DNA from: a virus
Length of the DNA stretch: 33,321 nt
Virus record (IMG/VR): IMGVR_UViG_3300045534_000033
Span: 1-33,321 of that record
Strand: one strand, 5' to 3'
The notes beneath the pieces were generated by a model. The model did not search any database. It was given only the letters and a program-made list of their open reading frames with translations, and was not told the origin of the DNA. Below, in pieces: positions 1,379 to 21,004 of the stretch. Position 1 is the first letter of the stretch. Every line of letters begins with the position of its first letter. Made by a program: the position numbers and the translations under genes.

Positions 1379-3955
1379 CTAATCCTCATTTTCATCTTCG
1401 TCATCTTGTATTGATAACGTAGTGTTTCCCATGTCGTCTGTGCCGATCATACCTTTACGTCGTCCAGCTTTAGGTATGATGTTTTGTATAACTATCGGCT
1501 TTTGTTCTTGCTTAGGCTGTTCGATGGAACGATTTTGTATTGTTTCCATGCTCATCCTAACTCGTTCAAGCTGCTGTTCTGACGCCAGTCGGCGCTCCTC
1601 CATAAGCTTTTCTGACTCAGCCAAACGAACTCGCATTTGCTCAAGCTCAAGTTTTTGAATCTCAAGAATTTGAGACATGCGGTTGGTTTCTTGCTGAATT
1701 GCTTGCTTATTGGCGTCGGATTGAGCCATCGCTTGAACTTTAAGCATATCAACTTGTACGCTTGATTGCTTCACTTGAATCTCTTGTTGAGCAAGTGCCA
1801 ATTCTTGCTGCTTGAAATACTCTTCCGTCTGTTGTTTTTGTATATCAAGTTGGGCGGAAAGTTGGTCACGTTGCATCTTTAGTTGCTGCTCTTGATAAGC
1901 GAGCTGATTCTTAGTGGCTTTGTCCTGCATTTCCATTTGCATGACCTGAATCTTAGCTTGCGATTCAACCTGAGCTATTTGGAGACGCCCCTGTACCTCA
2001 AGCGTTGTAGGGTCCGGCGGCGGCGGCTGTTTAGCAGCTTCTTCCTTAGCTTTCGCAATTTCTCCAACTTGCTGCATAGCCTTTGTGAAAATACCATCGA
2101 GTTCCTTGCCTCCTTTCATGCGTTTAATCATGTTTTGGAATAGGGAGATACTGAAGTCCAAAAGCGGTGGGTACTGGTCCACCAAGCCTCTCATCTGGTC
2201 AAAGAACTGACCTGCCTGTTCGATAAGCATGGCACCGTCTTGCTGCTGTTGCTGCTGGTCGATGGCAATCATGCTGTCAGTAGCAATCTGGATGCGGTAG
2301 CTACGCTTCTTGTTGTCACGAAGCAATCCGATGATCTGCTGCTTCATTTCATCAATCTTTTGCAGCGGATCTGGAGCAGGAGGTGGTGCCATTGGCGGCA
2401 TCATACCTGTATCACCTGGTGGCATACCCTCTTGCCCCATCTCTGGAATTGGAGGGGCTGGTGGAATGTAGATCGTCGGCTCAATAAGAGCGTCAGCATC
2501 ACCGATCTCAAGAATTGTTTCTGGCTCAAACTGTTCCGCAACAATCGTGCCAAGGTTGCTTATGGCATCTGATATAAACTTGCTGAACATATTCTGACGT
2601 ACAACCAAACCGAGGGATGACCATTGATTCTCCAGTCGATTAGCGGTTGCTGACTTATATTGTTCGCTTGTACCACGAAGCAAATCAGAAACTTTTAGCG
2701 TTTCGTAAAGCTGTTGAAGTGCTGCGCTACGAGCGCCTTGAAGCACGTTAAGAGCGTTTACAAATGGCTCGACTGGATAGAACTCTACTCCTGCTTGCAA
2801 GCCACCACGGCCCTTATAGGACGGCCAGTTAATGATTGGAGTACCCTTCAGGTCGCCAGCAAATAACTGCTCAACGGTTGGTCCCATTGCAGCATCGTAC
2901 AGGAAGTTAGTACGGATAGCCTGGGTTACGGCATGGATACGAGTGGTAAGCCGCTCAACCTCAAGAATCTGGTCACGAACATGAGCATAGTCAGAAACAG
3001 GAACTACTGAGTCTGGGTCTGCTGACTGACGAATAACTGAGCAAGGATAGAACTTCTCAAACTTAGTAGGTGGTTCAGACGATTCAATAATAGCCTTTTC
3101 GCCTGTCTTTTGAAGCCAATACACCTTGTTAGTAGCTTCGCACCAAATCTCGTGTAGTTCTGCTTTACCCTCAAACTTATCCTCTTTACGAGCCAAGTCT
3201 TTCTTCATGACCTCTGGAAACGAGTCATAAACGAGGTCATTAGCTACATCACGGCCAAAGAGTTGTTCTGCCTGACTGCGGTCGAGGAAAGCACGACGAG
3301 ACTGCCATTCGATTTCATCTTCGCTTCGGGCATCGGAGCAGTTGTAATCGTTGTATTGGATAACGTCGAGCAACGCTCTTTCACGAACCTTACGCTCAAC
3401 CTCCATTGAAGCCATAAGAATGTTGCCTTCGCCTTCCTCAAGGATGTCGGTATCGCCTGTGTATGGTCGACCGCTACCGTCAATAATCTGGCCTGACGGG
3501 TCTTTGATTACCGCCATTTCCTCCATAACGGTTTCAAACTTGGCAACGTATCTCGCCCACAGAACGCTCTGACCAGTAAGCAAAAACTGTAATGCTGCGT
3601 TATAACCAATTTTATCGAAGTCAAAATGCGTATCCATGACGAACTGTGTATTTCGTTCAAGGATTACGCTACCAAGCTCATAAGGTAAGCCGCCGGTACG
3701 CTTACGAAGGTTTACTTCTGCTTTGGGAGTAGAAGAATAATAAGCAGGAAGCAAAGTATTGATACAATACCACCAAACATTAAGTCGTCGCTCAGCATCA
3801 TTCAGGATTCCTACCTGTTTTTGAGCGTTATAAACCCGAATTGATTCTTCGGCGGTTTCTATAAATTTACGGCGACGTTCTTCAGATTGAGTGATTTGAG
3901 CCTTCCACCAGCGAGGACTGTACTTTTGGATGAGAGGCTTAATCTTAACACTCAT
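1379..3955 (-). CDS. Portal protein with long coiled-coil C-terminus, 858 aa
   Basis: Portal proteins form the dodecameric ring through which DNA enters and leaves the capsid. This one follows the large terminase directly (ATGA overlap at 3952-3955), the usual order, and its first 480 residues have portal-like composition, including the N-terminal PRWWKAQITQSEERRRKF stretch. Around residues 490-540 there is a Pro/Met-rich linker. Near residue 570 there is a run of six glutamines encoded by a short CAG/CAA repeat. From about 650 to 810 the protein is almost continuous Gln/Glu/Lys/Met heptad-like helix, which would fit a helical barrel projecting into the capsid, as in P22, whose portal is 725 residues. 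The C-terminus is highly acidic. It is larger than most podovirus portals. Confidence 0.92.
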   Translation of the reverse strand: MSVKIKPLIQKYSPRWWKAQITQSEERRRKFIETAEESIRVYNAQKQVGILNDAERRLNVWWYCINTLLPAYYSSTPKAEVNLRKRTGGLPYELGSVILERNTQFVMDTHFDFDKIGYNAALQFLLTGQSVLWARYVAKFETVMEEMAVIKDPSGQIIDGSGRPYTGDTDILEEGEGNILMASMEVERKVRERALLDVIQYNDYNCSDARSEDEIEWQSRRAFLDRSQAEQLFGRDVANDLVYDSFPEVMKKDLARKEDKFEGKAELHEIWCEATNKVYWLQKTGEKAIIESSEPPTKFEKFYPCSVIRQSADPDSVVPVSDYAHVRDQILEVERLTTRIHAVTQAIRTNFLYDAAMGPTVEQLFAGDLKGTPIINWPSYKGRGGLQAGVEFYPVEPFVNALNVLQGARSAALQQLYETLKVSDLLRGTSEQYKSATANRLENQWSSLGLVVRQNMFSKFISDAISNLGTIVAEQFEPETILEIGDADALIEPTIYIPPAPPIPEMGQEGMPPGDTGMMPPMAPPPAPDPLQKIDEMKQQIIGLLRDNKKRSYRIQIATDSMIAIDQQQQQQDGAMLIEQAGQFFDQMRGLVDQYPPLLDFSISLFQNMIKRMKGGKELDGIFTKAMQQVGEIAKAKEEAAKQPPPPDPTTLEVQGRLQIAQVESQAKIQVMQMEMQDKATKNQLAYQEQQLKMQRDQLSAQLDIQKQQTEEYFKQQELALAQQEIQVKQSSVQVDMLKVQAMAQSDANKQAIQQETNRMSQILEIQKLELEQMRVRLAESEKLMEERRLASEQQLERVRMSMETIQNRSIEQPKQEQKPIVIQNIIPKAGRRKGMIGTDDMGNTTLSIQDDEDENED

Positions 3956-5370
3956 ATCTTAGCTCGTTTCTGTTGTGACCGCATTTGGGCAATATACGCC
4001 TGTAACTTAATTTTACCCTTGTTAAAGACTTCCGCTGGTTGTTCCCACTTAGCGTCTACCAGGCGTCCTTTGCAGAGGTACCGTAAAGCATCGCAAGCAT
4101 GATCATTACCAGTAGAATCCGCATCTTCAGGGTTGCGTTTGTCTATTGACAGTGATGGTAGTGTTTCCAGCAAATATGGGCAACTGGCAAATATATAGAG
4201 GAGCGGAGGGTTAGACACCAACCGTTGCCGTATCTGCGACCAGCCAGATATGCGGTCATTGTCGGCAGCTCGAAACGATGGAAACTTATACTTGGCGAAC
4301 ACCTGGGTGAACTGGTCAGCGATGCTCGGACCGCCTTCGTGGTTAAATATACTGGGGTCGGCAAAAGCTAATGGATTTTCTCCGACGGATATTGATCCAA
4401 TTCGATTAGCCTGATCAATGTTATCAACTCCTTTTCCCCACATCTCACGGTATATGACGATGGCTCCTTTTTGGTACGGAACCTCGTTTCCAGCGTCATC
4501 ACGACCAGAACTAACAGCACCCCAGACAGCAGCAAAAGGAGAGCGGTAACCCCAATCGTACCCCATGTATCGGGGCCAGTGTTTAGGGATATTGAAAGGA
4601 CTAATGATATGTTTAGAAGAAAACTCAGGAAAATAGCTGCCTTCATGGATTTCAAAGTCTCCCTCAAGCCATGCTCTGACAAGCTCCGGCGAGCCTACCA
4701 TGTGCAATCGGTTGATATACTCAGGGTCACGAGCGAGCAGAATCTGGTTATCATGTACCCTACTTGGAATATAAATGTAGTCAAAGCTACTTCCGTTGGG
4801 TAACTGTTTTTGTAGGATTTTCATCCCTTTTGGTGCTGGCTTGATAAACAACTCTTTTAGCCAACTATGACCTACACCGCCTGGGTTAAAGGTAAGTATG
4901 ACCTGGCCACCGCCCTTACCTCGCAACGCTCCGAACAGCTTCCATATACAGCTTGGATCTGAATAGTTACCTGCCTCTTCTATTGCCGCATGGCTGAGAT
5001 TTTGGCCTTGATACTTTTCAGCGTCACCGTCGTTAGCCAACGGACGAAACCGCAACCGGCCACCATTAGGGAACGTAAACTGCTTTTTCTGGTCCTGCCA
5101 GTGAGCTTGTAATGGTAGGTAAATTTGCTTTGCTCGCTCGATAAGGTCATCCGCTTGAGGGAGTTCTTTTCGAAAAAATATCGCATTGAAGTCACTGCCA
5201 AACTGCTCCTGAGCTATGGCAAACTTGCCTAATACGCCGTCAGTCTTACCTCCACCACGAGCCCCGCCGTAGCCAATAAGGGTTATAGGACAGTGGATTA
5301 GAGCCTCTTGTGGCCCCCTTTGAGGTTGCCATACCACCGTAACATTATGATCTAACTCACTATTTTCCAC
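3952..5370 (-). CDS. terL: Terminase large subunit (packaging ATPase and nuclease), 472 aa
   Basis: This is the motor that pumps DNA into the procapsid through the portal and cuts the concatemer. The N-terminal ATPase has a Walker A loop GGARGGGKT (residues 35-43), a Walker B-like segment around SHAAIEEAG and a coupling motif TFNPGG. The C-terminal RNase H-like nuclease shows acidic motifs GYDWGY, FADPS and NDHACDALRY. Length is normal for the family. The start is a GTG at 5368-5370 with no clear ribosome-binding site. It lies inside the last codons of the upstream HNH gene, so expression may depend on coupling to that gene. The stop overlaps the portal start. The small subunit is about 1.9 kb upstream, separated by an unusual accessory block. 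Confidence 0.97.
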   Translation of the reverse strand: MENSELDHNVTVVWQPQRGPQEALIHCPITLIGYGGARGGGKTDGVLGKFAIAQEQFGSDFNAIFFRKELPQADDLIERAKQIYLPLQAHWQDQKKQFTFPNGGRLRFRPLANDGDAEKYQGQNLSHAAIEEAGNYSDPSCIWKLFGALRGKGGGQVILTFNPGGVGHSWLKELFIKPAPKGMKILQKQLPNGSSFDYIYIPSRVHDNQILLARDPEYINRLHMVGSPELVRAWLEGDFEIHEGSYFPEFSSKHIISPFNIPKHWPRYMGYDWGYRSPFAAVWGAVSSGRDDAGNEVPYQKGAIVIYREMWGKGVDNIDQANRIGSISVGENPLAFADPSIFNHEGGPSIADQFTQVFAKYKFPSFRAADNDRISGWSQIRQRLVSNPPLLYIFASCPYLLETLPSLSIDKRNPEDADSTGNDHACDALRYLCKGRLVDAKWEQPAEVFNKGKIKLQAYIAQMRSQQKRAKI

Positions 5371-5861
5371 TTTTTGCCCGTTACAATGTTATGTATATGC
5401 TTGCCGTCTACGCCATATTTTGCGCCTAAACTACGGGTCGTATGACCACCTTCAGCATAAAGTTTGCGAATTTCTATAACTTGCTCAGGTTTTAATTTTG
5501 CATCTCTGTGTTTAGAACCATGCCAAGTACGACCCTTTAATGCCATGTCTTGCATATTGTCTTGATGAGTTCCCAAAAACAGATGATCTGGATTTACGCA
5601 TTGCGGATTGTCGCAACGATGTAAAACGTGCTTGTCGCCAATAGGCCCTACTAACAATTGATAAATTAAACGATGAGTTTTGTACTGTCGGCAGTTATTG
5701 CGATTACCTTTTTCTCGCACCTTAAAACAACCATATCCGTTCTTTCTTCCCAGCGTGCCAATCCAATAATGGCAATCGCTAAAAGGTATCTGCACAATAT
5801 ACCGATTTAGCCGATCTAATATGTGCTCTAATGAATATCCCAAAATCATGTGGTCCACCAT
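5352..5861 (-). CDS. HNH homing-type endonuclease, 169 aa
   Basis: This is a free-standing HNH nuclease of the type that spreads itself by cutting related phage genomes. The HNH_3-like core is clear: CHYWIG near the N-terminus, THRLIYQLLVG, then HRCDNPQCVNPDHLFLGTH with paired cysteines and the histidine/asparagine residues. The C-terminal 50 residues (LKPEQVIEIRKLYAEGG...YGVDGKHIHNIVTGKKW) look like the helix-turn-helix DNA-binding region common in these enzymes. I chose the ATG at 5859-5861 because GGGGGTG lies just upstream; an ATG at 5888 would add nine residues. The 3' end overlaps the start of the large terminase by 19 bases, as expected of a mobile gene inserted beside a conserved target. 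Confidence 0.9.
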   Translation of the reverse strand: MVDHMILGYSLEHILDRLNRYIVQIPFSDCHYWIGTLGRKNGYGCFKVREKGNRNNCRQYKTHRLIYQLLVGPIGDKHVLHRCDNPQCVNPDHLFLGTHQDNMQDMALKGRTWHGSKHRDAKLKPEQVIEIRKLYAEGGHTTRSLGAKYGVDGKHIHNIVTGKKWKIVS

Positions 5862-5881
5862 AGCACCCCCACATAGACTTG

Positions 5882-6055
5882 TCAGCATCCATTCTTTAGC
5901 TCGTTACATTCAGCCCAAAACTGTTCCCAACTAAGCTCGTATAGCTCCTTAACAAACTCCTTTTCGCACTCAATACAGAGGTTTGTGGCAATGTCCCACA
6001 GTGAGCCACATTCAGGACACTTCCAGTGACCGCTAGTTTCCGAATCTTTTAACAT
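5882..6055 (-). CDS. Mini zinc-ribbon protein, 57 aa
   Basis: This small protein has two Cys-x-x-Cys knuckles, CPECGSLW and CIECEKEF, fourteen residues apart, which fits a single zinc-ribbon. The acidic C-terminus (FVKELYELSWEQFWAECNELKNGC) is probably helical. The ATG at 6053-6055 has AGGTGG at a good distance upstream, so I prefer it to the GTG three codons earlier. It overlaps the preceding zinc-ribbon gene by 23 bases. The role is unknown; such proteins can bind nucleic acid or act as small adaptors. Confidence 0.75.
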   Translation of the reverse strand: MLKDSETSGHWKCPECGSLWDIATNLCIECEKEFVKELYELSWEQFWAECNELKNGC

Positions 6056-8333: not shown

Positions 8334-8606
8334 CTACGCACACTCACTCATTAATTTAGCAAACTCTGCATGGCTCATACCGCTCATATCATGCAACGCT
8401 AGTATCTCACCTATGTGATACATCCGTTTAAACCGCTCACGATAGCGCCATGCCTGTACTGATACACCGTACAACGCCGCTGCCTTACGTTGTGTGAGAT
8501 TCATTCGTGCACGGAGTCTCCAATATAGGTTAGCCTTTGGTGCAGGTTGAGCATGCCTGTAGTTACCTATCCAATACTTATCGGATGGTTTATCCCTACT
8601 CATCAT
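8334..8606 (-). CDS. Helix-turn-helix DNA-binding protein, probable early regulator, 90 aa
   Basis: Residues about 35-75 (LRARMNLTQRKAAALYGVSVQAWRYRERFKR) are a Cro/CI-type helix-turn-helix: the LTQRKAAALYGVS segment is the first helix and turn, and VQAWRYRE the recognition helix. The end (EILALHDMSGMSHAEFAKLM) is helical. The gene is transcribed away from the early operon, and CATACA motifs lie just upstream of it and in the early promoter, so it probably regulates early transcription and itself. No candidate start has a clear ribosome-binding site. I chose the ATG at 8604-8606 because it leaves the CATACA motifs outside the gene; ATGs at 8636 and 8654 are alternatives. Confidence 0.75.
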   Translation of the reverse strand: MMSRDKPSDKYWIGNYRHAQPAPKANLYWRLRARMNLTQRKAAALYGVSVQAWRYRERFKRMYHIGEILALHDMSGMSHAEFAKLMSECA

Positions 8607-8633
8607 AGTTATTACACTATTGAACCTATTACT

Positions 8634-8653
8634 CATACAGTAAGTATCATACA
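8634..8653. promoter_or_regulatory. Candidate operator pair (CATACA motifs)
   Basis: CATACA occurs at 8634-8639 and 8648-8653, fourteen bases apart, within overlapping inverted repeats (CATAC...GTATG at 8634/8657, and GTATCAT...ATGATAC at 8644/8666). They sit just upstream of the chosen start of the helix-turn-helix gene. The same hexamer recurs at 8816-8821 in the early promoter and at 9870-9875. Autoregulation is an inference. Confidence 0.4.
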
Positions 8654-8802
8654 TCAGTATGGGTAATGATACGGTAACTACTTAGGTCAGACAACGGTGC
8701 AGGGTTGCATCACTGTCTCACGTTGTTTCAGCAAGACGAAACTGACTTCACTTTTATTCAAAACTTTCTCAAGTTTTTTTTACAATAATCCGAATCTCTC
8801 CC

Positions 8803-10363: not shown

Positions 10364-10684
10364 ATGAAAGCATTACTTTTCACACTTGCTATGATTCCAG
10401 GAGTGGCACTGGCTCAATTTGACGATGAGGGAAACTATAGGCCAGATTTGGCTATAGGGGTTCAACCATCCTACCCAATAGCCGTTCAGCCTGTTTTACC
10501 CGTTCCAAGGGACCGTGGGCCGTGGGGAACCGGCTATAGCGTTGTCACGGAGACGAGGGAACGCCCCGATGCTTGGGGTAGGTTTCTAGGCGACCGTGAC
10601 GCCACGACGACGACAACAACGCAGCGAGTTGTTCCTAATGATGTTACAGGCCAACCAATCAAAGGCGTAGAGCTTCCGTGGTAA
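10364..10684 (+). CDS. Secreted (periplasmic) hypothetical protein, 106 aa
   Basis: The N-terminus is a clear signal peptide: MKALLFTLAMIPGVALA followed by Q, with an ALA cleavage motif at residues 15-17. The mature part is Pro-rich (QPSYPIAVQPVLPVPRDRGPW) and then has a threonine run (DATTTTTTQ), which suggests an extended periplasmic protein. The ATG has AAGGAGATGAC upstream. It is the first of four consecutive envelope-directed genes. No family is recognised; spanin-like, lysis or superinfection functions are possible. Confidence 0.75.
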   Translation: MKALLFTLAMIPGVALAQFDDEGNYRPDLAIGVQPSYPIAVQPVLPVPRDRGPWGTGYSVVTETRERPDAWGRFLGDRDATTTTTTQRVVPNDVTGQPIKGVELPW

Positions 10685-10690
10685 TGAGGG

Positions 10691-10712
10691 CCCTGCCTAG
10701 TGATAGGTGGGG
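10691..10712 (+). promoter_or_regulatory. Stable hairpin with GNRA-type loop
   Basis: CCCTGCCTA (10691-10699) and TAGGTGGGG (10704-10712) can form nine continuous pairs, two of them G-U, closed by a GUGA tetraloop. It lies in the 75-base gap between the secreted-protein gene and the lipoprotein gene. No T-run follows, so an RNA stability or protein-binding role is more likely than termination. Confidence 0.5.
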
Positions 10713-10759
10713 TGCTGATTGCCAGTTTGGGATCTGTTTAACGTAAAATAGGGGAAACC

Positions 10760-10948
10760 ATGAAAAAGTATATTTTTTGTGCTGTGGTGTTGTTGTGTTC
10801 CGGCTGTACCGGAATCGAGTTGGGTGGACGGCTCGGAGTGTACCGAGTGGACGAACGGCAAGAATCAAGCCGTACCAACGTTGAGAACAAAGTGCCTCTC
10901 AAATGCTACTTTGTAAGCTGTACTGAACCGACTAGCGAGCTGAAATAG
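10760..10948 (+). CDS. Small outer-membrane-type lipoprotein, 62 aa
   Basis: MKKYIFCAVVLLCSGC is a lipoprotein signal with lipobox LCSGC and the modified cysteine at residue 16. Mature length is 47 residues, with two further cysteines (CYFVSC) that could form a disulfide. No Asp follows the lipidated cysteine (Thr instead), so outer-membrane sorting is likely. The ATG follows TAGGGGAAAC. Size and lipidation resemble outer-membrane spanin subunits, but it is not proline-rich and no embedded partner frame was found. Confidence 0.75.
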   Translation: MKKYIFCAVVLLCSGCTGIELGGRLGVYRVDERQESSRTNVENKVPLKCYFVSCTEPTSELK

Positions 10949-10956
10949 GTGACACC

Positions 10957-11124
10957 ATGATCGATCAAATCAAACAACTACTCTTCACACCCACGGGAAT
11001 CATCGTTTCTTTGCTTCATGTGGCATTCTTTGTGGGTGCTGTGACGTGCTGGATAGGGATCCAAACCCAGATCCTCGGCAACGACCCAATCGAGCAGGTG
11101 CAATCGTTAGGAAAGCGACGATGA
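10957..11124 (+). CDS. Small membrane protein, 55 aa
   Basis: An uninterrupted frame from the ATG at 10957 (MIDQIKQLLFTP...) to TGA at 11122-11124 has AGGTGACACC as ribosome-binding site. Residues about 12-35 (GIIVSLLHVAFFVGAVTCWIGI) form one membrane segment. The charged tail ends GKRR. Its stop overlaps the start of the lytic transglycosylase gene as ATGA, so the two are probably translated together. Holin, anchor or partner functions are possible, but the family is not recognised. Confidence 0.7.
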   Translation: MIDQIKQLLFTPTGIIVSLLHVAFFVGAVTCWIGIQTQILGNDPIEQVQSLGKRR

Positions 11125-11624
11125 AGCCGGGTCAGGTTAGCCCTGCCGATCTAAGTTGGATCGGTGGGGTTGTTATAGTCGCTATGGCAGCCTGTACGGT
11201 GCGCTTGCCTGATGACCTATCCTATCACACCCTTCGCTTCTTTGGTCTCAATAGCGGCCATTCTAGGGCCGTTATAAGCCAAGAGGTGACTAGGGCTGCC
11301 GATGCTTACGGCTTAGATCGGAACGTGTATCACGCCGTGATACAGGTCGAGAGTGCCGGCAACGTGAAAGCGGAAAGCCGTGTAGGTGCCCGTGGCCTGT
11401 CTCAGGTTATGCCGTTCAACGCTCGTCGGTGTGGATGGCATCCAGATCGCCTGTGGGACCCAACCCACAACGTGCGGTGTGGCGCTCGCATACTGTCGGA
11501 GGAGTTAGAACGTACCGGCAACATCCGAGACGCTCTTACCGTGTACAACTGTGGCAAAATTAACTGCAAGGAGGGAAAAGAATACGCTAGAAAGGTACTT
11601 TCACTGTCTAAGAAATTAGGCTAG
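11121..11624 (+). CDS. Membrane-anchored lytic transglycosylase (SLT family), 167 aa
   Basis: The C-terminal domain (about 55-165) is a soluble-lytic-transglycosylase-type fold. It has QVESAGNVKAESRVGARGLSQVMP, with likely catalytic Glu77 in the VES motif, the GLSQVMP motif, and a later ALTVYNCG segment. It would cut the glycan strand of peptidoglycan. Residues 13-26 (WIGGVVIVAMAACT) are hydrophobic with many small residues, resembling a signal-anchor-release segment or uncleaved anchor. I chose the ATG at 11121 because AGGAAAG precedes it and it overlaps the upstream stop. No classical endolysin is seen in the late lysis cassette, so this could be the endolysin despite its position among early genes. 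Confidence 0.85.
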   Translation: MKPGQVSPADLSWIGGVVIVAMAACTVRLPDDLSYHTLRFFGLNSGHSRAVISQEVTRAADAYGLDRNVYHAVIQVESAGNVKAESRVGARGLSQVMPFNARRCGWHPDRLWDPTHNVRCGARILSEELERTGNIRDALTVYNCGKINCKEGKEYARKVLSLSKKLG

Positions 11625-11656: not shown

Positions 11657-12496
11657 ATGAACGACAAACAACTAATAACACAGAATAACGTGGAGATGCT
11701 TCACACGTTGCGTAACACAGTCGCACCAGGGTTGACTGATAGCGAATTCGCTTTATTTGCGGAAATCGTTAAAAGCACTGGCTTGAATCCTGTAACTAAA
11801 GAAGTGTGGGCAATCAAGGCAGGTGGCCGCTTACAACTCATGACCGGGATCAACGGATTCTTGCGTATCGCTAACTCTCACCCAATGTTTGACGGCATGG
11901 AAGTGGAGTTTGAGTGGGACAATAAACAGCTCATTTCAGCAACTGCCAAAGTATATCGCAAGGACAGGCGGTTTCCGGCTGTAGCTACGGCTTATATGAA
12001 TGAATACGGCAAACAAAGTCCTATATGGAAAACGATGCCATCAGTTATGTTAAGTAAGTGTGCGAAAAGTCTGGCCATAAGAGAGGCTTTTGTGCAGGAA
12101 CTTGGCGGCTTGTACACCCAGGAGGAGATGCCAGCCGAGTATGCACCACCACGAGCTACGACTATCCCGCAGGAGGCTTTGATCGTTTCGGAGAAAACCA
12201 ACCGAGTGATTGGGGCCAAGGTTGAGCCAGTTGAGGACATCGTGGACGTAGAAACAGGTGAAATCTTTGATCAGCCAGATGATTTACCAGGTTTTTTGGA
12301 AGTTAAGCCAAAAGCTAAGAAATCGAAGGCTACGACGACCTACTACAACCTGGAAACACTACAGGGTGACAAATTGGTCATCGCTGAAACGTATCTGGTT
12401 GCCAATAACGCTAAAAGGTTGACCGAAACACACTGGAAGTCACCTATCCGGCTTGAAAAACTGACTAGCTGCATTGATGAGGCTTTCAATGAGTAA
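11657..12496 (+). CDS. RecT/Bet-type single-strand annealing protein, 279 aa
   Basis: The first 165 residues match the Bet/RecT superfamily: LTDSEFALFAEIVKSTGLNPVTKEVWAIK, then GGRLQLMTGINGFLRIA, and later WKTMPSVMLSKCAKSLAIREAF, the usual order of motifs. These proteins coat ssDNA and anneal complementary strands in phage recombination and recombination-dependent replication. The C-terminal 110 residues look linker-like and lysine-rich (KPKAKKSKATT). A 5'-3' exonuclease partner, normally next door, was not found. The start has TTGGAGACAAA upstream. Confidence 0.93.
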   Translation: MNDKQLITQNNVEMLHTLRNTVAPGLTDSEFALFAEIVKSTGLNPVTKEVWAIKAGGRLQLMTGINGFLRIANSHPMFDGMEVEFEWDNKQLISATAKVYRKDRRFPAVATAYMNEYGKQSPIWKTMPSVMLSKCAKSLAIREAFVQELGGLYTQEEMPAEYAPPRATTIPQEALIVSEKTNRVIGAKVEPVEDIVDVETGEIFDQPDDLPGFLEVKPKAKKSKATTTYYNLETLQGDKLVIAETYLVANNAKRLTETHWKSPIRLEKLTSCIDEAFNE

Positions 12497-13035: not shown

Positions 13036-13326
13036 TCACCCCAACAACGTCAAAGTCCAATTCTCATCAGGACTACACCGTTTTGCCTCAGTTCTAAGCG
13101 ATGAATTAGCCACAAGTTGGCTGTAATCGCAGAAAAACCGCTTGTTTCGTCTGAGGCCGTCTGTAGTGGTTTCATAATCAACCAGAAACACGTTTCCGTC
13201 GGCATCCACAGCCTTGTACGTTCCCACCGAATTGCCCGTATGCGTCGAAATAGGAGCATACTCCGGCAGGATGCTGTAAAGCCGCTGGTGCAGGTCAGTA
13301 ATAATGGGTTTATGCTTGTTTATCAT
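13036..13326 (-). CDS. Hypothetical protein paired with the excisionase-like gene, 96 aa
   Basis: The gene starts at an ATG inside the end of the excisionase-like gene (17-base overlap) and ends before a strong minus-strand terminator, so the two form a small operon facing the early genes. Residues 30-70 (GNSVGTYKAVDADGNVFLVDYETTTDGLRRNKRFFCDYSQLV) look like a beta-rich small domain. No catalytic motif is seen. A regulatory or immunity-like role is inferred only from its partner and orientation. Confidence 0.65.
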   Translation of the reverse strand: MINKHKPIITDLHQRLYSILPEYAPISTHTGNSVGTYKAVDADGNVFLVDYETTTDGLRRNKRFFCDYSQLVANSSLRTEAKRCSPDENWTLTLLG

Positions 13327-13498
13327 GACGCTCCTTCAACCAAGCTTCAATGTCAGCAATTTTTACCCGGCGATGGGTTTTGAGTTTAAGATGTGGACAC
13401 CCAGCTTTTAACCAACTGCGGATCGTCATATCAGAAACGCTAAAATAAGCCTTTGCTGCCGTTATCGTAACGTAATTGTTTTTTTCTTCATCTGTCAT
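13310..13498 (-). CDS. Excisionase-like helix-turn-helix protein (HTH_17/AlpA type), 62 aa
   Basis: The segment YVTITAAKAYFSVSDMTIRSWLKAGCPHLKLKTHRRVKIADIEAWLKERH is a MerR-like winged helix of the excisionase family: VSDMTIRSWLKAG is the helix-turn-helix, the basic KTHRRVK the wing, and DIEAWLKER the last helix. These proteins bind DNA as excision factors or transcription regulators. No integrase or attachment site is visible, so a regulator is more likely. It diverges from the SSB-like gene across a 71-base gap and could control that promoter. Confidence 0.85.
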   Translation of the reverse strand: MTDEEKNNYVTITAAKAYFSVSDMTIRSWLKAGCPHLKLKTHRRVKIADIEAWLKERHDKQA

Positions 13499-14160: not shown

Positions 14161-14323
14161 GCTATTTAAAGACCATTTGTGGCGTAAGCTGGAAGCAGAG
14201 CACAAGGCGTCTGTAGAGCAGGGCAAGGTAAATCTTTTTACCGCAAATCAGGAAGCGGCCATCATACGGTGGAGTAGTGAGGTACTGACTCAGGAGCGAG
14301 TTAAAAAGGAAACAAAGAAGTGA
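14141..14323 (+). CDS. Small charged hypothetical protein, 60 aa
   Basis: This short, helical, charged protein (LFKDHLWRKLEAEHKASVEQGKVN and EVLTQERVKKETKK) overlaps both neighbours (20 bases upstream, GTGA downstream), which supports a real gene. GAGGCGG upstream is the likely ribosome-binding site. Function unknown; the lysine-rich end could contact DNA or a partner. Confidence 0.6.
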   Translation: MIKPVSELFKDHLWRKLEAEHKASVEQGKVNLFTANQEAAIIRWSSEVLTQERVKKETKK

Positions 14324-14928
14324 ACGCTGACACACCCCCACTCAAGGTCTGGATTAAACGGGAGTACCTTACAAAAGGTGAGGAGTCAGGCTTTGAGGAG
14401 GGGGTAGCGTTTGCGGTGCAGTCCATGAAAGGACGAGCACTGCACTTCCACGTTCTGCTTAAATCGGGGGCTCATTTTCGTCATGTCCCTTTACACTGGT
14501 TATGTCACAATGCTCCTGTAGTAACCGAAGAGCGACCACTTGAAGCGCTACAGCTTTGGGACTGCTTTAGTTACAAGCCAGTAGTTACCGTATTTGACCT
14601 GCTTAGAAACTATCAATGCGAGGCAATACTCCGTGACAAAACTAAGTATAACGCCACTTATTATTGCACAGTTGATTGGCTGCCTGATTGTGATTCTCAG
14701 TCTGGTTGGTTGCTACATCCCGACCAAAATAAATGCGCCCATATACTTCTGTTGGAAAACGGACAAATCGGATGTTTGCCAACCAATCGAGTCCTCTTCA
14801 AAGACGGATTCTATATCGGAAACGTTCCAGACGCTGCCACCCGTAACTATAAAACCGTGGACGTTGTTTTCACCGCCGAAACCTGCGAGCGATGGTCAGT
14901 AGCAGACAAAGAGGAGACTTACTACTAA
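14320..14928 (+). CDS. Hypothetical early protein, 202 aa
   Basis: The start is a GTG overlapping the preceding TGA. The protein is rich in Trp, Cys, His and Tyr, with FHVLLKSGAHFRHVPLHWLCH early, a middle around ALQLWDCFSY, and GQIGCLPTNRVLFKD later. These alternating strands suggest two beta-rich halves. I recall related unknowns in other phages but no function. It joins the nuclease gene by a TAATG overlap, so both are likely produced together. Confidence 0.65.
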   Translation: MNADTPPLKVWIKREYLTKGEESGFEEGVAFAVQSMKGRALHFHVLLKSGAHFRHVPLHWLCHNAPVVTEERPLEALQLWDCFSYKPVVTVFDLLRNYQCEAILRDKTKYNATYYCTVDWLPDCDSQSGWLLHPDQNKCAHILLLENGQIGCLPTNRVLFKDGFYIGNVPDAATRNYKTVDVVFTAETCERWSVADKEETYY

Positions 14929-15298: not shown

Positions 15299-15571
15299 AT
15301 GTGGTTGGCCGTTATCGACAAAGCCATTACGGATTACGTTGCGCCAACACCAGACTTATCAGCAACATATGCACAAGGTTTAGATTGGTTTTTTTACGAG
15401 CGAACGTCAGTCCCGTTCAACCTGGCTTACATTTGCGATATGCTGTTCGATGACTCATCCAAGGTATCAGCAATTCGTGCAAGGGTCACACGATTAAAAA
15501 ATAACCCAGAGGAGCTTAAACGCTTCGTTAAGAAACGATATAACCTACGAATCAACAGTAGGTTTTTTTAG
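15299..15571 (+). CDS. Hypothetical protein at the end of the early operon, 90 aa
   Basis: The core (MWLAVIDKAITDY...DWFFYERTSVPFNLAYICDMLFDD...VSAIRARV) resembles a small helical family found near the ends of phage early operons, where a role in transcription switching has sometimes been supposed; I cannot confirm it. The frame is open upstream to an ATG at 15161, but that part overlaps the conserved end of the nuclease gene, so I placed the start at 15299. No start has a good ribosome-binding site. The last codons encode a terminator hairpin. Confidence 0.6.
   Translation: MWLAVIDKAITDYVAPTPDLSATYAQGLDWFFYERTSVPFNLAYICDMLFDDSSKVSAIRARVTRLKNNPEELKRFVKKRYNLRINSRFF
15542..15569 (+). terminator. 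Early-operon terminator inside the last codons
   Basis: AACCTAC (15542-15548) pairs with GTAGGTT (15558-15564), and T continues to 15569. The hairpin lies within the final coding region, and its T-run contains the stop codons of both convergent genes (plus TAG 15569-15571; minus TAA 15570-15568). Confidence 0.8.
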
Positions 15572-15753
15572 CGCTTTTTCTTATCGATCAGACTCCAAAC
15601 CTGACTAACGCCGTACAATACAGCGCCTCCGACTACAGGCTCAGCAGCCCGAACAAGATTGTGAGCATCAGCCTCAGACACTCCAACTGTAAGCAAGCCA
15701 CCAGCAGCCAGGGTTAGCAAGTGCCGAATAAGGGAAGCAAGAAATACCGGCAT
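15568..15753 (-). CDS. Putative holin, 61 aa
   Basis: The small protein has two hydrophobic stretches (VFLASLIRHLLTLAAGGLLTVGV and VVGGAVLYGVSQVWSLI) and a basic end DKKKR. This matches the Pam3-gp28-like putative holin type, with RHLLT near the start and a WSL-KKR end. Holins permeabilise the inner membrane at lysis. It is the last late gene; its start has GGAGAATTTT and overlaps the preceding gene by 40 bases. Confidence 0.7.
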   Translation of the reverse strand: MPVFLASLIRHLLTLAAGGLLTVGVSEADAHNLVRAAEPVVGGAVLYGVSQVWSLIDKKKR

Positions 15754-16538
15754 AAAATTCTCCGTGTTCTCATAAACGTGGCGCTACCGTATTTACAATC
15801 CCGACGCCGTGGATCAACAAAACCACCTCGGATGCAATTCATCCAAGGCTCCCAGTAATAGGCTAAATCACACTTAGCATATCGGTCTACCCATTTCTTT
15901 ACGTCAATTGTACGGCCATCAGTGCCATCCATATCCGCTATACACGGCTTAGACAGATTAGGACTTTCTCCGTGGGACTCACAAACGTATCCCTTGGCGC
16001 AGCGTTGCCGGTGAGGACTGTCAACAGGAACACACTGAGGCAAAGCAACAGATACCCGATATAATAAAACTCTTCTGGCACTTTCATTTAGGTCACACTC
16101 CAAACAAGGACTGACGTAACATGTCAGGTTAGTAGAGCTGCTAAACATCACAGCCAGGTCATTTAACTGCTTATCAAAGTATCCCATCAGCTTTTTATCG
16201 TTACGGAGCACCGCACGACTGGCAGAGGCTATGGTATGCCCATAGAACGCCTCATACCGGCCACAGCGACGATTTCTAAGGCAGGGGCCGTTAGAGAGGT
16301 GGACTCGCACTACCTTCGGCCTGGAGTCAGCTATAAGCCTTTTAGGGCACTGGCACTCAGTTCCAAACGTATTGGTTAGCCAGGACAGTTTGAGTGTCTC
16401 ATGGCCACGATACATCTTAACCGTTGCGTCACAGTTCCAATCCTTGTGACACATAGCCAGCAAACTTGGTGCTGCGCTTGCCGTAGGTAACTGAACAACC
16501 ACCAACAGCATAAACACAACCGCAAGCAGCGGTCTCAT
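15714..16538 (-). CDS. Secreted cysteine-rich protein in the lysis region, 274 aa
   Basis: A signal peptide (MRPLLAVVFMLLVVVQLPTASA) is followed by a mature protein with many cysteines, several in close pairs (CQCPKRL, CYVSPCLEC), so disulfide bonding in the periplasm is likely. Motifs include CHKDWNCDATVKMYRG, LKLSWLTNTFG, RNRRCGRYEAFYG and ADMDGTDGRTID. I have seen related unknown proteins in phages but no established activity. The size and secretion would suit an enzyme acting on the cell wall or surface during lysis, which is inference. ATGA overlap with the upstream gene. Confidence 0.8.
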   Translation of the reverse strand: MRPLLAVVFMLLVVVQLPTASAAPSLLAMCHKDWNCDATVKMYRGHETLKLSWLTNTFGTECQCPKRLIADSRPKVVRVHLSNGPCLRNRRCGRYEAFYGHTIASASRAVLRNDKKLMGYFDKQLNDLAVMFSSSTNLTCYVSPCLECDLNESARRVLLYRVSVALPQCVPVDSPHRQRCAKGYVCESHGESPNLSKPCIADMDGTDGRTIDVKKWVDRYAKCDLAYYWEPWMNCIRGGFVDPRRRDCKYGSATFMRTRRILCRYFLLPLFGTC

Positions 16539-16777
16539 TTTTCCAGCACCCTATCGAGCTTCTTATCCATGCGCTCAATCTGAGTTTGGATGTTGTTAAG
16601 TTCAGCCTTGAGAATCTGAACTTCCATTGTCACCTGATACTTGGATTGCTCAAGCTCATGAAGCGAGTTTTTAACCGCACGATAATCCATACCAACAATG
16701 GAAATTACCACGCCGATAATCGCTTTCACAGCAAGGTCAAACCAATACTTAAGTTGTGTAAAATCTCCGTCCGTCAA
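16535..16777 (-). CDS. Small membrane protein with coiled coil (holin- or spanin-like), 80 aa
   Basis: One membrane segment (about 11-29, FDLAVKAIIGVVISIVG) is followed by a long heptad-patterned helix (MEVQILKAELNNIQTQIERMDKKLDRVLEK). Inner-membrane spanins and some phage holin-like proteins share this layout. The start is a TTG at 16777, chosen because GGGAGGG lies upstream and TTGA overlaps the previous stop. An outer-membrane lipoprotein partner is not in this cassette; the only lipoprotein is in the early operon. Confidence 0.7.
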   Translation of the reverse strand: MTDGDFTQLKYWFDLAVKAIIGVVISIVGMDYRAVKNSLHELEQSKYQVTMEVQILKAELNNIQTQIERMDKKLDRVLEK

Positions 16778-17193
16778 TGTACCCTCCCGCCGCCATAAGC
16801 ATCTATAACTACTATTTCTGCTTCGGGAGTGTTCCCCATAAGTTCCATGAACTTTTGGAACGCCGATTTGCTTGCTAATATCGCTGATTCACTGCCAAGT
16901 TTGCCAAACTGCAAACCAACTAAAATACAACCATGCGTATCCTTATGCGTATTGCCAGCGTGAATCAAAATCTGGCTACGCTCAGGGACATCCATTACCT
17001 GGTAGGTTAAACCAAACTTAGGACTACGATGAAGTTTTAGTTTGTAACGACCCACTGGGATACAACTGATCAACTTTTCGTTGTATTTCCAAGAGTCCTC
17101 AAGCGTAACCAACTCAGGAGAGCCGTCGATACAGAGGACGCCCATTGTAGCGCCGTTATGCTCTGTAACTCTGACTAACCTGAGCTGCTTCAT
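16774..17193 (-). CDS. DUF5675-like protein, 139 aa
   Basis: This protein, with CIPVGRYKLKLHRSPKFG and ILIHAGNTHKDTHGCILVG, fits the DUF5675 family often found in phage lysis regions. The last motif, a histidine followed by HGC, resembles the active site of YkuD-type L,D-transpeptidases, so a peptidoglycan-modifying role is possible but unproven. I chose the ATG at 17193 because it overlaps the upstream stop as ATGA; an upstream start at 17217 would add eight residues. Confidence 0.8.
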   Translation of the reverse strand: MKQLRLVRVTEHNGATMGVLCIDGSPELVTLEDSWKYNEKLISCIPVGRYKLKLHRSPKFGLTYQVMDVPERSQILIHAGNTHKDTHGCILVGLQFGKLGSESAILASKSAFQKFMELMGNTPEAEIVVIDAYGGGRVH

Positions 17194-18346: not shown

Positions 18347-21004
18347 CTAAACTAAACTCAAAACTTTATCGACGTACTCTCGTGTTTCTTTCGGAACCTT
18401 GACGTAAGCCTTTATATTGGCCCAGGTTGGACGTTTGCCCTCTGCCCTTACCTTAGCCATGGCTCGCTTAACATTGGCTGGTCCCCAGTTGTTTGCTGCC
18501 AATGCCAACTGTTTGTCACCAAATTCTTTTAGCTGTACGGCAAGGTAACGACTGCCACCCTCAACGTTTTGCTGCGGATCAAACCTATCTTTAACGCCCA
18601 TGTCTCGTGCAGTCCCAGGCATCAACTGCATTAAACCACTCGCACCTTTACTACTTACAGCTTTTGGATTCCCACCTGATTCAACTTGTATAACGGCTTT
18701 TACGATTGAAGCCGGAGCAAATTCGTCGCCGGTAGGAATGCTGATGTTTTGCTTGCCGATCTGAATCGTTGCTGCCGGCTCTACAGTTGGTTCTGGTGTA
18801 GGTGTTGTAGCAGGTGCTAATCGAGCACGTTCAGCTTCAATCGCAGCTTGAATTTGAGCTTCTTCAGCAGCAATGTCAGCTTCTGTTTCAGGAAGCGGAG
18901 TTGTCGCTGCATACTCAACTGGGTTGCTAATTATGCCGGAGCTGCGTGTAAATGCCCCTGCTCGTGGCGCAAACGATTCAACTGCGGCTACCAATCCTTT
19001 AGCAATTTGGTCTTGAGTAGCACGTCGTGCTGCTTCTTCCTTACCGTACTTGGCTGCATCATCAACATACTTGAGTGCAGTGGCTGGATCGGTTAATGCG
19101 TTTGCAAGCGCAGATGCCGTACGAGCTGTACTAGCTTTCATTCCACCGCCAATAAGTGGATTTACAATAGCCGCACCTATTCCAGAAAGATAACCGCCTA
19201 ACGCCGATGTTAAGCCAGAGCGAGCTATGTTTCTACTTGCGCTGACCGCACTGGCTTCTGCTCCTGATGCCACGGCATCTTTTCCAACACCACCCAAAGC
19301 ACGAATAAGAGATTTAGCTTGAGTGTCAATGTTTTCAGCAGACAAGCCAGGAACAGCAGCTTTTCCTTCAGTTCCTTGGATTCGTTTTAATATGCCTTCC
19401 CACTGATCAAGAACTGGCATAATTGGACTGTCAGCATATACAGCTCGTTTGCTGCGAAGCCAATCAAGTTTTTGTCCAACCGTTTTTTGCTGTACAAAGT
19501 CAGCCATTTCAGTTGCAAGTTTATTTGGCTCTAAACCACCTACAACCTTTGCGTATTCGTCCGATACAGCAGACTTTTTACTAACTGAGGTAATAATATC
19601 TTCAGGGTTTTGCTTGCGCAAAAGTCGAGCTAACGGCGATAATTGGCCATCGCCTGAGCGATACCAACGTTGCTTAAACTGTCGCCATTCGCTACGAGCA
19701 GCTTTAAGAGCGCCAGTGCCTTCTACAGCATCAATACGCTTACCAAGCATCTCTACCAGTCGATCTGCAAATAACTCATCCCGTGAACCATTTGCAGCGG
19801 AACGTGACAGCTCAAGAGCTTCGGAACGCAAATCCTGTAGCTTGCCCACAGTAGTCTGCGTTGCTTTATCTGCTTCAACTTTCTCAATCTTTGCTACTAA
19901 AGATTTTAAATCGGAGTTTGGTTCTAATACCTTTGTGTCTTTGTAAATTTCTTGGAATACATTATCAGCATCTTTAGCAATACCAGTCGCAGGTGCTGTT
20001 ATGGCTCGCACTTCATCCGTGAATAATGCACCTGCTGAAGTTCGTTGTTTCTCCCTGGCGCTTTCCAGCAATGTACGAGCTGCTTCACCTGCACGTTTAG
20101 GATTAGGGTCTTTTAAGGCAGTCAAAGACTCAGCGGCTGCGTTGATTTCATCAAGTTGCTTACTAGCCGTTTCCGCAAGCTGAACGTTAGCCTGTCCAAG
20201 TGGTTGTTTTTGCAATAACGCTTCAGTGCGAGCTAATTGCTCAGAGCCAGTCAGCTGCGGCGTAGTCAGTGTAGACGCTGGCAATCCAGCTTGAACAAGC
20301 GCCTCTTTTTCAGCAGCAGCTTGAGCCAACTGCTCACGAGCAACTGCTTGACCAACGGCTGATTGAGCGGCTTCGCTACCAACCATAATCTTAGGAAGTT
20401 CAGCGCCAATTAAACGTTGCGCCGCCTCTTCAGTCGGTGGTCCCATTAGGCTACGGTATAAAGCAGCTCCACGACGTGCTACTGGCAATGCAAGACGACC
20501 TAATCCACCGGCCGTACGAAGTGCTGTTTCTACGCCAGCGCCAAGCACAGCTTCTTGAGTTCCTTGTTCAATTCTACTTTCAGAAGGCGTTGTGCCAAGT
20601 AGGTAATCCAATCCCATTTGAACTGGCACATCTGCCAAAGAGCCTATTGCGCTTCCTACAACTGCCCCCGCAGGAATTGACAGGCCTCCCGTATACGGGG
20701 CAAAAGGCAATCCCGCAGTAGCTCCAGCATACCCACCGTAAACACTACCACCAATGCTTGCTCCCTCCTCTGCCCCTACTCGCAAACTTTTTAATAAACC
20801 GCTTGGCTTCCAAGCATCTTGCATTTCTTGCAAGCTCATTGTTCCACCAAATGGCCATCCAGCAGCAATTCTTGTCTCTGGAGATAATCCATAAGGGTAT
20901 GTTGGCGTTGGGGTAACAGTTGGAACAGCGTCAGGCAAAGCCTCAAGCTGTGCTATCGCCGCCTCTTCCTGCGCCAGTAGTGCCTCTAATTCGTCAGGTG
21001 TCAT
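18347..21004 (-). CDS. Ejection protein with C-terminal lytic transglycosylase, 885 aa
   Basis: Residues about 760-885 are an SLT domain: VIQVESGGNPKAVSSKGASGLMQLMP with catalytic Glu775, then RYLAVQLKEFGD and LAANNWGP. It would open the cell wall during infection. The N-terminal part has Gly/Ala-rich segments (GGSVYGGYAGATAGLPFAPYTGG and AGAVVGSAIGSLADVPVQMG) that could enter membranes, followed by long alpha-helical regions rich in Ala, Glu, Lys and Gln. That is typical of proteins ejected ahead of phage DNA. It follows another ejection-type protein by an ATGA overlap and precedes the tail fibre. T7's enzyme domain is at the N-terminus of gp16; here it is C-terminal. Confidence 0.9.
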   Translation of the reverse strand: MTPDELEALLAQEEAAIAQLEALPDAVPTVTPTPTYPYGLSPETRIAAGWPFGGTMSLQEMQDAWKPSGLLKSLRVGAEEGASIGGSVYGGYAGATAGLPFAPYTGGLSIPAGAVVGSAIGSLADVPVQMGLDYLLGTTPSESRIEQGTQEAVLGAGVETALRTAGGLGRLALPVARRGAALYRSLMGPPTEEAAQRLIGAELPKIMVGSEAAQSAVGQAVAREQLAQAAAEKEALVQAGLPASTLTTPQLTGSEQLARTEALLQKQPLGQANVQLAETASKQLDEINAAAESLTALKDPNPKRAGEAARTLLESAREKQRTSAGALFTDEVRAITAPATGIAKDADNVFQEIYKDTKVLEPNSDLKSLVAKIEKVEADKATQTTVGKLQDLRSEALELSRSAANGSRDELFADRLVEMLGKRIDAVEGTGALKAARSEWRQFKQRWYRSGDGQLSPLARLLRKQNPEDIITSVSKKSAVSDEYAKVVGGLEPNKLATEMADFVQQKTVGQKLDWLRSKRAVYADSPIMPVLDQWEGILKRIQGTEGKAAVPGLSAENIDTQAKSLIRALGGVGKDAVASGAEASAVSASRNIARSGLTSALGGYLSGIGAAIVNPLIGGGMKASTARTASALANALTDPATALKYVDDAAKYGKEEAARRATQDQIAKGLVAAVESFAPRAGAFTRSSGIISNPVEYAATTPLPETEADIAAEEAQIQAAIEAERARLAPATTPTPEPTVEPAATIQIGKQNISIPTGDEFAPASIVKAVIQVESGGNPKAVSSKGASGLMQLMPGTARDMGVKDRFDPQQNVEGGSRYLAVQLKEFGDKQLALAANNWGPANVKRAMAKVRAEGKRPTWANIKAYVKVPKETREYVDKVLSLV

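Follow-up and report, generated by a model that had tools for sequence, protein, structure and literature searches.

We analysed the IMG/VR virus record IMGVR_UViG_3300045534_000033, which belongs to an uncultured tailed-phage group and whose full length of 33,321 nt is referred to as the window in the following. The features needed for the analyses are:

10364..10684, plus strand: gene A, 106 aa, secreted or periplasmic, with a signal peptide that ends in ALA before QF
10760..10948, plus strand: gene B, 62 aa lipoprotein, lipid-bearing Cys16 with Thr at +2
10957..11124, plus strand: gene C, 55 aa, single membrane segment, core LLFTPTGI..xLHVxFxVG
11121..11124, plus strand: ATGA overlap of the gene C stop and the gene D start
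11121..11624, plus strand: gene D, 167 aa, N-terminal membrane segment and SLT domain (PF01464)
11657..12496, plus strand: RecT/Bet-type annealing protein (phrog_252, E=1.5e-39), downstream border of the slot discussed below
15568..15753, minus strand: holin of the Pam3 gp28 family (PF23987, E=4.6e-8, 33.4 bits vs. cut-off 27)
15714..16538, minus strand: 274 aa secreted Cys-rich protein
16535..16777, minus strand: 80 aa protein with membrane segment and coiled coil, always adjoining DUF5675
16774..17193, minus strand: DUF5675 protein, probable late endolysin (E=6.3e-35, 119.9 bits vs. 26.7)
18347..21004, minus strand: 885 aa, SLT domain at the C-terminus, probably a virion transglycosylase for entry

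The preliminary description had reported four envelope-directed ORFs on the early strand, the last one encoding a membrane-anchored transglycosylase. The four ORFs are confirmed on the sequence, i.e., genes A to D are present on the strand of the DNA-metabolism genes with the C-D ATGA overlap, and their products show a signal peptide (A), a lipoprotein signal (B) and membrane segments (C, D). For D, the N-terminal membrane segment is combined with a clear SLT match (E=2.3e-20, 72.8 bits vs. cut-off 21.3). The conserved parts of A are the core PVxPVLPVP..GPWGTGYSVVT and a terminal W, and B features a second conserved Cys pair (C49 and C54).

The D protein shows the hallmarks of an SLT lytic transglycosylase, namely a domain score above the cut-off, a catalytic Glu and the GA-GL-Q-MP and YN motifs. 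Among 69 unique D proteins, E77 (catalytic-type), G89-A90, G92, Q95, P98 and Y142-N143 are invariant and M97 is conserved in at least 97%. The cysteines C104 and C120 are also invariant in this set, with C144 and C149 nearly so, a pattern that would fit a folded, disulfide-bonded periplasmic enzyme. Within the window, D is the sole SLT enzyme besides the virion protein (18347-21004), whose SLT domain is related to that of D, yet distinct. Comparison with named phages gave for D generic SLT domain matches only, all below 60% identity.

In most members, the N-terminus of D is a short, weakly hydrophobic membrane segment that is rich in Gly/Ala and poor in K/R, i.e., it has the features of a SAR anchor. 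The best 15-residue hydropathy is mostly 1.8-2.7, with 4-7 G/A/S/T residues and few basic residues ahead. In six loci of a sister clade (L176, L177, L187, L178, L180, L181), this segment is replaced by a lipoprotein signal of canonical type (VIGC-N, IVGC-D), an anchor that would argue against SAR-type release in this clade. That is, every D relative carries a membrane tether, and the type of tether varies by clade. Since the tether is kept while its chemistry changes, a permanent tether is favoured over a releasable one.

We searched IMG/VR with gene D for close relatives, which resulted in 16 contigs. The order A-B-C-D-recT is kept in all of them as far as each contig extends, with the exception of L016, where gene A was not found. 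Further searches seeded on B, D and C led to 89 representative viral loci, across which order, strand and overlap are kept, and A-B-C-D-recT is found in more than 80 IMG/VR contigs. The 4-nt overlap of C and D (ATGA or GTGA) is present in 76/86 pairs, or in 79/86 when an in-frame internal start is used in three of them. The median pairwise dN/dS values (A 0.29, B 0.175, C 0.20, D 0.155) indicate purifying selection on each of the four genes. Given this selection and the order, strand and overlap kept in homologues, the cassette is not a chance arrangement.

These first co-occurrence counts use loci that were fetched with the cassette genes and are thus biased, so we repeated the count with the late secreted gene as seed, using the best 80 of its 155 relatives. 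Among the 33 loci of this set that span the slot between gene A and recT, 24 encode A-B-C-D, 8 encode A without B-C-D and one encodes none of the four; a partial B-C-D was found in 0/33. The late block of DUF5675, coiled-coil, secreted and holin genes is complete in 67/67 loci able to show it (again among the best 80 of 155 relatives). Based on a tree of the four late proteins, at least four gains or losses of B-C-D are required.

With regard to the preliminary description, which had treated the four genes as a co-occurring unit, the genes themselves are real and their common order holds across the 89 representative loci, but the eight late-seeded loci with A and without B-C-D show that the unit gained or lost is B-C-D, not A-B-C-D. 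A lack of co-occurrence of the four genes, named in the preliminary description as a refutation, is thus seen in a minority of the late-seeded loci (8/33). Loss and replacement as a unit with A retained therefore identify B-C-D as an accessory module and set gene A apart.

Two further arrangements of the slot were found. In 14 loci, most of which were fetched by seeding on the respective gene pair, it is occupied by an unrelated lipoprotein and an overlapping small membrane protein without an SLT enzyme. The lipoprotein of this alternative pair, noted in L259, L272, L276, L279 and L345-L357, has 90 aa (LLSGC) and the overlapping membrane protein 77 aa; both are highly conserved, and for neither was a confident family match obtained. 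A profile comparison of the B-C pair with the alternative pair revealed no relation beyond the lipoprotein signal. In four loci the slot is empty, i.e., A lies directly next to recT. Judged from these loci, the slot has three states: B-C-D, an enzyme-free pair of lipoprotein and membrane protein, or empty. This marks the region between gene A and recT as an exchangeable envelope slot in an abundant uncultured phage group.

Family searches placed neither B nor C. Pfam gave no match for genes A, B and C; PHROGs, Pfam and named phages yielded no relative of B or C, B had none in PDB, and cellular or prophage copies of B and D, sought in genome contigs, were not found. By these searches, B and C belong to no known family. 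We rejected an assignment of B to the Cor family, as the match to phrog_1119 (E=0.027-0.044) covers only residues 1-19 of the window protein, which form the signal peptide, and the mature lipoprotein shows no similarity to Cor or Llp. B has the size of an o-spanin lipoprotein, with a weak best spanin match (E=0.19). Compared with an i-spanin and its periplasmic coiled coil, C offers only about 15 residues beyond the membrane segment, and it matches neither DUF2730 nor any holin family in Pfam or PHROGs. According to the E. coli sorting rule, Thr at +2 would direct B to the outer membrane.

The late minus-strand block of the window encodes the DUF5675 protein, the membrane/coiled-coil protein, the secreted Cys-rich protein and the holin of the Pam3 gp28 family. 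The earlier view that no recognisable endolysin is encoded in this block is not supported, since the product of 16774-17193 belongs to DUF5675 (E=6.3e-35), with support as an endolysin from literature and synteny; it lies next to the PF23987 holin block, i.e., among lysis genes. For the Vibrio phage martha 12B12, a soluble protein has been proposed as the endolysin, given its synteny and a weak HHpred similarity to L,D-transpeptidases (PMC9239132). Going by the gene map, this protein is the DUF5675 protein of martha 12B12, whose gene follows shortly after the late activator and precedes DUF2730 and the terminase genes. The window protein 16774-17193 is a full-length homologue of it with 36.7% identity, and a crAss-like phage record independently annotates a DUF5675 homologue as a transpeptidase-domain protein. 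The direct match of 16774-17193 to YkuD is weak (E=0.14) and its AlphaFold model poor (pLDDT 38.8). Overall, we consider 16774-17193 a well supported candidate and probably the late endolysin. The case for DUF5675 as an endolysin family is strengthened by the DUF5675/coiled-coil/holin block being present in every spanning relative examined (best 80 of 155), including the transglycosylase-free ones. In the Mu-like Vibrio phages martha 12B12 and vB-Vv-ZX4290 (L200, L198), DUF5675 proteins occupy the lysis position of the Mu type, with DUF2730 as neighbour, which makes DUF5675 a testable endolysin family.

Concerning the other members of the block, the candidate 16535-16777 was rejected as a DUF2730 releasin (hhalign probability 0.6%, no homology). 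The secreted protein 15714-16538 has many invariant cysteines and a predicted alpha/beta core, for which the best fold matches are TIM-barrel glycosidases, although weak (E 0.02 or worse; model pLDDT 69); the protein could thus be a secreted glycoside hydrolase. In a subclade of six loci (L042, L047, L048, L051, L053, L062), its gene is located on the DNA-metabolism strand between recT and rusA, and the DUF5675, coiled-coil and holin genes have kept their late position in those loci that cover them. Strict scans recognised no lipoprotein, i.e., no o-spanin candidate, in the late block; the same scans also missed gene B of the window, such that their negatives are weak. An ORF at 14594-14902 (plus strand) was rejected as a hidden o-spanin. 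It is lipoprotein-like, lies in the +1 frame within gene 14320-14928 and is open in close relatives and broken in distant ones (broken in L012, L014 and L015); its open frame is not significant (P values of 0.01-0.09, which are not independent), and the ORF is probably due to chance.

Given these results, we tentatively favour the reading that B-C-D is an all-or-none exchangeable accessory envelope module, which would modify the wall and surface of the infected cell and does not provide the main lysis enzyme. Strand and neighbours suggest that B-C-D would be made together with the DNA-metabolism genes. B would then reach the outer membrane, while C and D would stay in the inner membrane with the domain of D facing the periplasm. 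The anchoring of D together with its partner C would keep wall cutting local and sub-lethal. By altering wall and surface, the set would most likely obstruct a second phage (superinfection exclusion) or serve local wall remodelling. If B-C-D indeed works before lysis, the phage would keep a wall-cutting enzyme tethered throughout infection without killing its host early. Scans for promoters and terminators gave no more sites than shuffles, and an early timing is suggested by strand and neighbours only.

Superinfection exclusion is considered since replacement of the slot content by another pair and repeated loss are expected of exclusion genes, for which the exchange of small lipoproteins is typical. 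An early wall-remodelling or exclusion system, which the preliminary description had named next to split lysis, would fit this swap pattern better than split lysis does. To our knowledge, there is no exclusion system that uses a transglycosylase, and a full-text literature search returned nothing specific. We keep apart, as an unlikely specific form, muralytic exclusion: a lipoprotein of the outer membrane, a small protein of the inner membrane and an active transglycosylase on a tether would jointly block the DNA entry of a second phage early in infection, encoded in a slot for which relatives have an enzyme-free pair of lipoprotein and membrane protein. The closest precedents are lipoproteins, among them T5 Llp, for which exclusion is structurally proven (PMC9586334). 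Like T5 Llp and the T1/phi80-type Cor, B is a small phage lipoprotein that is accessory and exchangeable between relatives. In contrast to them, B comes with a coupled membrane protein and wall enzyme, and the similarity ends at the signal peptide.

The main rival to the accessory envelope module is an auxiliary lysis function, which we regard as possible but doubtful. Here, D would be a SAR-type transglycosylase that is tethered in an inactive state, C would regulate or release it and B would aid outer-membrane disruption, such that the set sharpens the lysis by holin and DUF5675. The short, Gly/Ala-rich and K/R-poor N-terminal segment of D and its coupling to the small membrane protein C point in this direction, as does the late block, where no lipoprotein was recognised as an o-spanin candidate by the strict scans that missed gene B. 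There is also precedent: both releasins and endolysins of the SAR transglycosylase kind have been described for Mu-like phages (PMC9239132), and T7-like phages have their endolysin gene (3.5) separated from the late holin gene (PMC4283147). However, at least four lineages without B-C-D keep the late block, the canonical lipoprotein anchor in one clade of D would not allow SAR-type release, C lacks a DUF2730 or holin-family match, and the spanin match of B (E=0.19 at best) is not a confident one.

The comparison with the respective known systems is similarly divided. SAR endolysins and the Mu gp25 releasin (DUF2730) share with D and C the weakly hydrophobic anchor on a transglycosylase and the adjacent small membrane protein, but D is located on the DNA-metabolism strand, is dispensable in relatives and lipoprotein-anchored in one clade, and C has no DUF2730 match. 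Furthermore, a SAR endolysin is the lysis enzyme of its phage, a role that the relatives without D and with an intact late block argue against for D. The gene 3.5 amidase of T7 resembles D as a wall hydrolase whose gene is separate from the late holin gene, but this T7 lysozyme, which is an RNA polymerase regulator, is a soluble amidase, whereas D is a membrane-tethered SLT enzyme. The proposed DUF5675 endolysin of martha 12B12 is comparable to the late gene 16774-17193, both being candidate enzymes, and not to B-C-D.

Quite improbable in our view is a trans-envelope complex, in which B, C and D assemble and D makes room in the wall for this assembly, e.g., for uptake or signalling in infection. 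The predicted products would span the inner membrane (C, D), the periplasm (D, A) and the outer membrane (B), and the conserved Cys pair of B would be in line with an assembly, but the complex would consist of three small proteins only, and searches of Pfam, PHROGs and PDB revealed no resemblance of B or C to components of secretion systems. VirB1-type SLT enzymes open the wall for secretion systems. With these and other specialised SLT transglycosylases, D shares the SLT domain beside a small lipoprotein at a trans-envelope site, but no other secretion-system component was recognised.

The strong form of the split-lysis idea, i.e., D as the main endolysin and the four genes as an early-placed lysis system, is very improbable: D is the sole SLT enzyme in the window besides the virion protein, but it is dispensable across the clade, and all examined relatives (among the best 80 of 155) have a late DUF5675 candidate endolysin and a holin. 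Relatives without B-C-D keep the complete late DUF5675-holin block, and since B-C-D is absent or changed at least four times while this block stays complete, D is not the essential endolysin of the clade. Lineages without B-C-D could carry a lysis substitute that went unrecognised.

Beside these genes, two HTH proteins that are conserved in relatives are encoded on the minus strand. One (8334-8654) is divergent from the plus-strand operon, and the other, a small excisionase-like protein (13310-13498), lies inside this operon; the two possibly form a lysogeny or timing switch. Finally, the terminase large subunit gene (3952-5370) is overlapped at its start by an ORF (5352-5888, minus strand) that resembles an HNH homing endonuclease by eye.
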